DNA from: Chthoniobacterales bacterium
GTDB lineage: Bacteria > Verrucomicrobiota > Verrucomicrobiia > Chthoniobacterales > UBA10450
Assembly (NCBI GenBank): GCA_025934755.1
Contig: JAICWQ010000013.1
Span: forward strand, 1 to 32,305
Length of the DNA stretch: 32,305 bases
Direction: 5' to 3'
In this document: positions 18,108 to 31,097 of the stretch, piece by piece
Layout: every line of letters starts with the position of its first letter
Position numbering within the stretch: position 1 is the first letter of the stretch
The notes under the pieces: generated by a model
Seen by the model: only the letters and a program-made list of their open reading frames with translations
Databases searched by the model: none
What the model was told of the DNA's origin: nothing
Made by a program: the position numbers and the translations under genes

Positions 18108-18599
18108 ATGGCTGAATCGAAACCGCTGGTCGCGATCATCATGGGGAGCAAATCGGATTGGGATACCATGCGTCACGCTTCCGAGACACTGGATGAGCTT
18201 GGCGTGCCTAACGAGGCCCGTGTGTTATCTGCGCATCGCACGCCGGAAGCGACCACAGATTTCGCGCGCAAAGCTTCCGACCGCGGGCTACGGGTAATCA
18301 TTGCCGGCGCAGGCGGGGCCGCGCATTTAGCAGGAGTTATCGCTGCCCATACCATCTTGCCGGTGCTTGGGGTGCCGATTCAATCGAAGTTGCAAGGGTT
18401 GGATTCACTTTTGTCGACCGCCCAAATGCCCGGCGGGATTCCGGTTGGAACTCTCGCAATCGGGGACGCCGGCGCAAAAAACGCCGCCCTTCTTGCCGTG
18501 GCCATCCTCGCTACCACTGACAAAAAACTTCGGCAAAAGCTCGAAGCGTTTCGCAAGAAACAATCCGAAAGCGTTCTTTCCGCGAAACTCCCGAAGTGA
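18108..18599 (+). CDS. purE: N5-carboxyaminoimidazole ribonucleotide mutase
   Basis: A 163-residue class I PurE, which moves the carboxylate of N5-CAIR to give CAIR in purine synthesis. [14 protein letters not shown] is the phosphate-binding loop; [11 protein letters not shown] carries the catalytic His; [20 protein letters not shown] and [10 protein letters not shown] complete the site. I start at ATG 18108 ([17 protein letters not shown]). The stop overlaps the GTG start of tsaC by 4 bases (GTGA), so the two are coupled. No purK is present next to it. Confidence 0.96.
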
Positions 18600-20224
18600 A
18601 GACGGAAATTCTGGCCGCGTGGCATCGGCATCCTGCCGATGATCATGGGCTGGAAGCCGATGCTGCAATACGGGCGGTAGAATTGCTGAGCAAAGGCGAA
18701 GTCGTCGCGCTCCCGACCGAAACGGTCTACGGGCTCGCGGCCGACGCGCTTGACCCGATTGCCGTCGCGAAAATTTTCGAGGCCAAGGGCCGGCCGCGCT
18801 TCGACCCGTTGATCGTTCATCTGCCGAATCGCGATTGGCTGGAGAAGATCGCGGACGTTTCGCCGCGCGATCGGGAATTCGTTGCAAAGCTCGCTGAAAA
18901 ATTCTGGCCCGGGCCGCTCACAATTGTTTTGCCAAAAGTCGCAGAAGTTCCGGACATCGTGACTGCCGGGTTGGACACGGTCGCCGTTCGAATCAGTGCC
19001 CATCCGGTTTTTGCTGAAATCGTTCAGAAATTTGGAAAACCGTTGGCGGCGCCGAGCGCAAATCGATTTGGTCGAATTAGTCCGACGACGGCGAAACACG
19101 TCATGGACGAACTCAACAATTTGGTTCCGTTGATTATCGACGCCGGCCCGACCACGCATGGGATTGAATCGACCATCGTGCGTGTCTCGGACAGCAAACT
19201 AGAGATTTTGCGGCGCGGTCCGATCACGTCCGAACAGCTTCGTGGCATGGGTTTCCAGCCGATGAATCCCCAGGAAGACATCTCGATTCGCGACGGGGCA
19301 AATCTGCCGCACTGGCAACAGGAAGGCGCGACTTATTCAGTGACTTTTCGTCTCGCGGATGCGCTGCCGCAGCGCGTCATCGGGGAATGGAAATCTGAAC
19401 GTCGGGATATTGTTTTGACCGCGTGCCAGCATAACCGCCAACTCACGGACATGGAACGATCACGTTTAGCTAAACTATTTTCCGAAAAGGTTGAGAAATA
19501 TCTGGATGCGGGCCATGGAAGGTGCTGGCTGCAAGACGCCCGCATTGCCCAGGTAATCCGTGACGCGCTTCTTCATTTCGACGGCGAACGTTACTATCTT
19601 TCAGCGTGGTGCGTGATGCCTAATCACGTCCATGCGGTTGTTCGACCAAAACCCCGCCATTCGCTTTCTGACATCCTGCACGCCTGGAAATCATTTACTG
19701 CAAAGGAAGCAAATCGAATACTGAATCGTCGCGGTCAATTTTGGCAGCCGGAGTCGTACGATCACTTGATATGCGACGAGGACGACTTCCAAAACCAAAT
19801 CCGTTACGTGATTGAAAATCCGACGAAAGCTGGGCTCAAGGCATGGCCGTGGGCGAGCCGCCCCGACTTGGGAATAGAAGCTCATCGGCTGGAAGCCGAT
19901 GCCACAAGAGTCTCTGCGCCGGGGCAATTGCCATCGCACTACGCGCCAAAAACACCCCTTCGCCTTGTTGACCACTTAACAACGTTCAAGTCCAGCCAAC
20001 GCTGCGGATTACTCGCCTGGAATCCGGTCGAGAAGGACGAGCGTTTCGTCGCGATTCGAAATTTGAGCGATAAACAGGATCTTCGGGAAGCGGCCGCGAA
20101 TCTGTTTCGGTATTTGCGCGAGCTCGACGACCTCGGCCTCGATCTTATCGTTGCAGAACAAGTTCCTTCTCAGGGACTCGGGGCTGCGATTTTGGATCGG
20201 CTGACTCGCGCGTCGCACGTTTAG
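18596..20224 (+). CDS. tsaC: Threonylcarbamoyl-AMP synthase (TsaC/Sua5) with a RAYT transposase embedded in frame
   Basis: A continuous 542-codon frame with three parts. Residues 24-215 are the YrdC domain that makes threonylcarbamoyl-AMP for tRNA t6A37: [18 protein letters not shown] (Lys64, Arg66), PSAN (Ser154, Asn156), THGIESTIV. Residues 439-542 are the Sua5 C-terminal domain, opening with [16 protein letters not shown], the linker motif that closes over the active site. Between them, about 216-438 are a complete REP-associated tyrosine transposase: [22 protein letters not shown] motif [11 protein letters not shown] (His344, His346), [11 protein letters not shown], and [13 protein letters not shown] with likely nucleophile Tyr404. 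Residues 8-23 ([15 protein letters not shown]) come from another REP copy. Normal Sua5 has only a short linker here. Start GTG 18596, overlapping purE. The product may be a working chimera. Confidence 0.9.
18619..18664. repeat. REP-like palindrome in frame at the tsaC N-terminus
   Basis: Starts GTGGCATCGGCATCCTGCCG and ends GGCTGGAAGCCGATGC. Same hairpin modules as the queG copy, but here translated on the plus strand in another frame ([15 protein letters not shown]). Confidence 0.85.
19242..19905 (+). mobile_element. REP-associated tyrosine transposase (RAYT) unit with terminal inverted REP modules
   Basis: The unit of about 664 bp begins with a 24-nt module (19242-19265, GTGGCATGGGTTTCCAGCCG...) and ends with its inverted copy (19882-19905, ...GGCTGGAAGCCGATGCCAC); 22 of 24 positions match by hand. 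The transposase has its own plausible start at ATG 19262 ([12 protein letters not shown]) within the left module, but no stop of its own: it reads through the right module into the host gene. HUH and Tyr motifs are intact, so it may still be active. RAYTs are single-strand transposases of the IS200/IS605 type associated with REP palindromes; the same palindromes are found elsewhere in this window. Confidence 0.88.
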
Positions 20225-28607: not shown

Positions 28608-28620
28608 ACAATTGGCCAGA

Positions 28621-29466
28621 ATGGCAAAAGGACTCGAACGCCTCCGTGACCACCAGGCCGACACCGCCATCATTCTCGGCTCCGGTCTCAGTTCGCTCGT
28701 TGGCGATCCAAACAAAAACCGGGTCATTCCGTATTCCGGGTTCTCGGAAATTCCCGAGCCGGCCGTTTCCGGCCACGTCGGCCAATTCGTTCTTGGTGAA
28801 ATCGAAAAGACGAAAATCATTTTCGCGCAAGGCCGGGTTCATCTCTACGAAGGGCACTCGGCACGGGACGTCACTTCGATCGTTCGCGTCCTGGCCGAAG
28901 CTAGAATTAAGACACTCATCGTCACCAACGCCGCCGGCGCCCTTAATCCCAAATTCAAGCCGGGCGATTGGATGATGATCACCGATCACATCAATCTCAC
29001 TGGCACAAGTCCACTGGCAGGGTTGGCCCGCTGCGCCGGCCGTCGGACATCGCCGCGCGATGTCCCTGCCTTTGTCGACATGAGCGAACCTTATTCGCGA
29101 CAACTTCAGGAAAAATTCCGCGCCGCCGCAAAGAAGCTTGCCGGGCGTAGCTCAAGCGAAGGCGGGATCGATCTTGTCCTGCACGAAGGCGTTTACGCGG
29201 GCAATTTTGGTCCGCAATATGAAACGCCGGCCGAAGTTGGGATGTTACAAAAGCTCGGCGCCGACGCCGTTGGCATGTCGACCGTTCTCGAAGTGATTCA
29301 GGCCCGGGCGCTCGGTCTCGAAGTTGCGGGATTCTCCTGCCTAACGAATCTTGGCGCCGGCCTCTCCCAAGAAAAGCTCAGTCATCATGAAGTTTTGGAA
29401 GTTGGAAAAAAAGCAGCTGCCGATTTTGCAAAGTTGCTGAGCTATGTGATGTCGGCCGCACTCTGA
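28621..29466 (+). CDS. punA: Purine nucleoside phosphorylase with an in-frame palindrome
   Basis: A 281-residue trimeric-type phosphorylase that splits guanosine and inosine with phosphate. GSGLSSLV is the phosphate loop; FAQGRVHLYEGHS, VTNAAGALNPKFKPGDWMMITDHIN, the base-binding EGVYAGNFGPQYETPAEVGML and VGMSTVLEVIQARALG are all present. Between NLTGTSPL and FVDMSEPYS, where homologues carry a short GPN-type loop, this protein reads AGLARCAGRRTSPRDVPA. That stretch is encoded by a 55-bp palindrome (29016-29070). The loop is near the active site in the family, so substrate handling could be altered. I start at ATG 28621. The gene follows pgpH after about 200 bases of repeats. Confidence 0.93.
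   Translation: MAKGLERLRDHQADTAIILGSGLSSLVGDPNKNRVIPYSGFSEIPEPAVSGHVGQFVLGEIEKTKIIFAQGRVHLYEGHSARDVTSIVRVLAEARIKTLIVTNAAGALNPKFKPGDWMMITDHINLTGTSPLAGLARCAGRRTSPRDVPAFVDMSEPYSRQLQEKFRAAAKKLAGRSSSEGGIDLVLHEGVYAGNFGPQYETPAEVGMLQKLGADAVGMSTVLEVIQARALGLEVAGFSCLTNLGAGLSQEKLSHHEVLEVGKKAAADFAKLLSYVMSAAL
29016..29070. repeat. In-frame palindromic element of a second family inside punA
   Basis: Ends are inverted GGCAGGG and CCCTGCC. Internally GGACATCG-CCGCG-CGATGTCC is a perfect 8-bp hairpin, and GCGCCGGCCG is near-palindromic. It is unrelated in sequence to the GTGGCATCGG family. Confidence 0.75.
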
Positions 29467-31000: not shown

Positions 31001-31060
31001 AGTTCTGGCCCATCCATTGACCTCAATCGCCCGCTCGGTGATTGTCATGGCTCGTGTGGC

Positions 31061-31081
31061 GGGCGGTTCGGTGAACCGCCC
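31061..31081. repeat. GGGCGGTTC-GGT-GAACCGCCC hairpin upstream of cysD
   Basis: A perfect 9-bp stem with a 3-nt loop, 16 bases before the cysD start codon. The size and loop resemble REP hairpins; a role in cysD translation is possible. Confidence 0.7.
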
Positions 31082-31097
31082 CTACCTGAGAGAATCG

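Follow-up and report, generated by a model that had tools for sequence, protein, structure and literature searches.

REP sequences of the GTAG class are short hairpins that carry a GTAG tag (also GYAG or GTGG), have stems of 6–13 bp and loops of 2–3 nt, and have RAYTs (REP-associated tyrosine transposases) as partners (Di Nocera et al. 2013, PMC3733652). In the verrucomicrobium Opitutus terrae they form dimers with spacers of 1–2 bp and occur as in-frame copies inside genes, and the targets of the class include DnaE2 (PMC3733652). The same source gives a precedent from Xanthomonas, in which recB of two species carries different REPs at about the same site. In Pseudomonas fluorescens, two inverted REPs act as one hairpin-capable, RAYT-associated unit, the REPIN; these units are extragenic and have longer spacers (PMC3116915). 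Rickettsia palindromic elements (RPEs) are in-frame palindromes in conserved genes that are tolerated in the protein, and a DnaE gene has also been struck; in the account given there, their tag is CGTC and they have no known transposase partner (PMC3733652).

Here we describe a 55-bp palindrome in the purine nucleoside phosphorylase (PNP) gene of a Chthoniobacterales bacterium, like O. terrae a verrucomicrobium. The window, that is, the whole stretch of DNA analysed, has 32,305 bp. The palindrome and its relatives share with the GTAG REPs of O. terrae and other bacteria the tag, the stems and loops, the head-to-head heterodimers, the in-frame copies (including one in DnaE2) and, in one subfamily, the association with a RAYT (PMC3733652). 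They resemble the Pseudomonas REPINs as units of two inverted REPs, and differ from them by spacers of 0–3 nt and by several copies inside genes. Relative to the 24 published GTAG consensus families (PMC3733652), the element is placed by tag and architecture. The text on GTAG REPs considered here does not mention PNP, PurL or Lhr among the targets (PMC3733652). The element is a fresh member of an already known repeat class; the more interesting part is the swapping of repeats at fixed protein sites.

A REPIN within the PNP gene

The element has the sequence GGCAGGGTTGGCCCGCTGCGCCGGCCGTCGGACATCGCCGCGCGATGTCCCTGCC, ends exactly in GGCAGGG and CCCTGCC and lies in frame within the PNP open reading frame (Table 1), as a preliminary description had stated. 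Judged from its sequence, it consists of two GTAG-type REPs placed head to head, that is, a REPIN. Firstly, the element is repeated. A query of 301 bp around it matched five other places of the 2.97-Mb genome (an assembly of 258 contigs) over the element only (BLAST, 80–85% identity, E 4.5e-10 to 1.5e-6), and a covariance model built from eight copies found the two-hairpin architecture in about 65 distinct places, the dimers being dispersed. The palindrome family announced in the preliminary description is thus borne out. Since the model includes the PNP copy, the score of this copy is not independent, and the BLAST matches are the independent evidence for it. Within the bacterial family, 59 of the fetched non-orthologous loci match the PNP element. 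Its first 20 bases have one match in the window, where chance alone would give 0.01. The exact pattern GGCAGGG..CCCTGCC occurs in only three places of the genome, a search that undercounts the element family because most copies carry GGTAG. Secondly, the aligned copies have a common design: a GGYAG tag, a 9-bp stem with a 3-nt loop, a spacer of 0–3 nt, a second 9-bp stem with a 3-nt loop, and CTRCC. Nearly all carry a GTAG-type tag, either GGTAG or GGCAG; the PNP copy has GGCAG at both ends, a variant that is allowed in the class and is possibly a sign of age. Thirdly, 94.5% of the cells in the aligned stems are paired, and 6 of 23 pairs are changed on both sides yet still paired (shuffled mean 2.1; none of 500 shuffles as high).

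Table 1. Positions of the REPIN and neighbouring features in the window
Feature	Position	Strand	Basis
PNP gene, with a possible alternative start codon (ATG) at 28621	28612..29466	+	NF006054 and PF01048 matches; model pLDDT 91.7
GTAG-type REP head-to-head dimer (REPIN), subfamily A; encodes residues 136-153, AGLARCAGRRTSPRDVPA	29016..29070	+	Sequence; genome copies; architecture and covariation
First REP: tag GGCAG (GGTAG variant), 9-bp stem, loop GCT	29016..29041	+	Alignment and pair counts
Inverted second REP: 9-bp stem, tag GGCAG read from the opposite strand	29045..29070	-	Alignment and pair counts
Second small in-frame extra stretch in PNP (about LAGRSSSEGG, about 10 residues), absent from sister species G006	29143..29172	+	Alignment
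Dimer of subfamily B with this architecture, degraded, lying just upstream of an ORF that was named cysD-like by eye	31012..31088	-	29-32 bp exact matches to other copies; sequence

The evidence for a non-chance hairpin is therefore the repetition and the compensatory stem changes, rather than folding energy. The latter is unremarkable for the PNP copy alone (z -1.8), as would suit an ordinary variation of the loop that is palindromic by chance, or an RNA signal similar to a terminator, without any mobile element. This reading is contradicted by the copy number, the many genome copies having conserved length and ends as well as the stem changes, and the element sits midway in an open gene; we give it next to no credence. 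No more credible is an assignment to the RPEs, whose in-frame palindromes in many genes show the same behaviour (PMC3733652): the ends of the element are GGYAG and CTRCC, not CGTC, and its sibling subfamily B is linked to a RAYT, whereas CGTC repeats are reported in that source without transposase genes (PMC3733652). Membership of the CGTC REPs or RPEs was rejected on the tag.

The flanks of 62 copies were also compared. No target-site duplication of the kind that a MITE of a DDE transposase would have was found in them, flank matches being equal to the shuffled expectation for 2–8 bp. Nor do these flanks hold an extended target consensus; their sole bias is an outer A/T pair, 90 of the 124 outer positions being A on the strand that runs into the element. 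This bias suggests that the element may have one more base pair at its ends.

Subfamilies and in-frame copies

The copies fall into three subfamilies, A (GGTAGGGACGGCGC-GCT-..., the PNP type), B (GGTAGSGGCGGTTCACC...) and C (GGTAGGGGCCGTTGCCC...). Subfamily A, with about 20 copies, is GC-rich and without stops in four of its six frames; B and C, together about 47 copies, have more stop codons. Seven element copies sit in frame inside genes and have coding signal to either side: those in PNP, DnaE2, PurL, the Lhr helicase, an EgtB-like protein, a DUF255 protein and a sulfotransferase (two of the seven score just below the strict covariance-search cut-off, but are in clear genes). All seven are subfamily-A copies, with B and C contributing none. 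Nearly identical insert peptides are found in unrelated proteins. Six of the seven share one reading frame, which is suggestive of a preference, the copies being too few to claim one. In-frame insertion had been taken for a general trait of this genome; with at least seven copies it is general there, and it is not limited to this genome, since it runs through the whole bacterial family.

The sulfotransferase copy (L061:1470-1541) has 72 bp because a second palindrome (AGTCCGAGCCGGACT) is nested inside the element, both in frame. In a MeaB-like GTPase ORF (L007:1-1638) the C-terminus is formed by a subfamily-A element, and a GRRSLGEGS stretch in the middle of the ORF looks like another repeat-encoded peptide.

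The inserted loop of PNP

The interrupted ORF matches NF006054 with 292 bits (cut-off 218) as well as PF01048; it encodes a PNP of the trimeric class, and its predicted structure compares with solved PNPs at a TM of about 0.8. The preliminary description had the element near the active site, in place of a short loop and between intact conserved residues, and on each of these points it was right. The TGTSPL motif precedes the element and F-x-D-x-x-x-x-Y-S follows it. From SPL to F, the gene has 54 bp (18 codons) against 15 bp (5 residues) in relatives, a net gain of 39 bp, or 13 residues, which implies that some 15 bp of the former loop have been replaced. A 5-residue loop (for example IGSAN in the sister species, or LGAPQ) is present in 24 of the 25 other PNPs of the bacterial family, that is, the site is empty in these relatives; the remaining one, in G002, has a different repeat insert in the same loop. 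The loop sequence of this PNP was looked for in other PNPs, the refuting condition set in the preliminary description, and was not found there.

F154, directly after the insert, aligns with F159 of bovine PNP, the only active-site residue that is supplied by the neighbouring subunit (PMC9916683). Hence the insert adjoins the border between active site and subunit, a position that would suit a useful loop, recruited because a longer, arginine-rich and disordered stretch alters trimer packing, substrate access or the regulation of PNP; many PNPs of other phyla are, moreover, longer here than those of this bacterial family. Against such a use, 5 residues suffice in 24 of 25 relatives, the Phe159Ala change barely alters the activity of human PNP (PMC9916683), and the occurrence of nearly the same peptide in unrelated proteins argues for passive insertion. 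In addition, the insert, with the predicted junction-spanning peptide DVPAFVDMSEPYSR, is predicted to be disordered: the model has a pLDDT of 91.7 overall and above 90 in the core, falling below 50 for loop residues 141-146. We consider recruitment for a function very improbable. On the best-supported reading, the insert would form a disordered loop which the enzyme tolerates at the edge of its active site, and would add nothing new to catalysis.

The second extra stretch of this PNP (Table 1) is repeat-like by eye, and no other copy of it was found beyond this gene among the fetched loci. At the same point, the PNP of G002 has a different, repeat-like insert.

Different repeats at the same protein sites

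We compared orthologous sites in up to 83 genomes of the bacterial family. In G002, which belongs to another genus, the PNP loop is occupied by a palindrome of an unrelated kind, TGCCGGTCCGAGCCGGACTGGCA; the core of this palindrome is found many times over, both in G002 and in the genome of the window. Each of the 29 aligned DnaE2 orthologs contains an in-frame insert (30–120 bp) in a single linker that separates the HHH domain from the OB domain. Of these 29 inserts, 24 match non-orthologous loci, which makes them dispersed repeats. By inspection, they belong to at least six repeat families. On a DnaE2 tree of the 29 genomes from which the insert had been removed, at least 15 changes of family label are needed (11 without the unassigned inserts), a number that is approximate, the labels being assigned by eye and some forks being weak. 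This species and its sister G006 are 95% identical in DnaE2 and have different repeat families in the linker. As a control, non-orthologous matches were obtained for 75 of 200 DnaE2 fragments at the site versus 22 of about 1,700 elsewhere in DnaE2. The Lhr site is empty (12 bp), holds single GTAG REPs (about 30 bp) or, in three genomes, holds subfamily-A dimers in both orientations, and the PurL site has empty and variously filled states among relatives. All repeats at the compared PNP, DnaE2, Lhr and PurL sites are in frame. A late rise of the matches of PurL fragments was disregarded as most likely an artefact, probably caused by another fetched locus that overlaps PurL. In three DnaE2 linkers (L284, L288 and L293), a long palindrome encodes a HPERSEAKSRDP-like peptide; this repeat type looks unrelated to the GTAG REPs.

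The turnover in the DnaE2 linker, reaching down to sister species, the range of states in Lhr and the two unrelated repeats at one PNP spot could reflect true insertion hot spots, at which RAYTs or repair act on sites that are palindromic or hold a repeat, and a new repeat preferentially replaces an old one at the same place. Tolerance alone, however, likewise leads to an accumulation of surviving inserts in permissive linkers, and the sites in DnaE2 and Lhr do lie between domains; the flanks of the copies are devoid of extended consensus and duplication, their outer A/T pair looking like a part of the element; we judge such hot spots unlikely. Passive tolerance at permissive linkers, with insertions elsewhere being purged, explains most of the site sharing. 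Only tentatively, and with rather more doubt than belief, can it be proposed that fixed linkers (DnaE2, Lhr, PurL, PNP) in this Spartobacteria-like family are interchangeable sites for in-frame repeats, with unrelated palindromic families actively displacing each other from one sister species to the next, beyond mere tolerance. So far, neither a target motif nor remnants of old repeats lend support to active replacement.

Link to RAYTs

A RAYT gene of the genome (G000:C229; 154 aa, NF047646, 93.9 bits) is flanked by subfamily-B REPs: one lies some 20 bp upstream of the start codon, and a second overlaps the stop codon. Among 13 Y1 transposase loci of this genome and about 30 related ones (this genome and eight relatives), none was a RAYT with subfamily-A REPs at its flanks. 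We infer that a RAYT mobilises subfamily A.

The preliminary description had held the PNP element to be unrelated to a RAYT-linked palindrome family of the window, which we take as GTGGCATCGG... (at 18618 and elsewhere). The stem sequences do differ; the plan of tagged hairpins is the same, with a GTGG tag in that family, and subfamily B flanks a RAYT. The original observation is confirmed and its interpretation holds in part, the separation from the RAYT-linked kind being the part that does not stand. At 18596-20224 of the window, one open frame of 542 aa comprises a Sua5/YrdC domain, then a whole RAYT, then a Sua5_C domain; a complete RAYT and its REPs appear to have been inserted in frame in a tRNA-modification gene.

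Discussion

We regard it as highly probable that a REPIN, most likely mobilised by a RAYT, landed in the PNP gene, replaced surface-loop sequence in frame and survived because it was tolerated. The element is part of a repeat population that spreads through the genome and its relatives, most likely as single-stranded DNA mobilised by a RAYT. One copy would have landed in the PNP gene, where 54 bp of the element took the place of 15 bp of a surface loop (18 codons for 5), presumably in one step. Its survival may be ascribed to the stop-free frames of the GC-rich subfamily A and to a loop that tolerates changes of length: the encoded, probably disordered stretch would end just before the equivalent of bovine Phe159 and leave the catalytic core intact, and the insertion would then be neutral. 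Against this origin stands the net gain of only 39 bp, which means that target sequence was lost, a loss for which clean insertion alone does not account.

With this origin, a selfish repeat would write new protein sequence in core metabolism, and the presence of REPs inside genes would extend to an entire family of bacteria. Across species, unrelated repeats have been exchanged again and again at a single codon position. Nature thereby offers sites in an empty, an occupied and a re-occupied state, with which one could test the landing of REPINs, their loss and a possible dependence of proteins on them.
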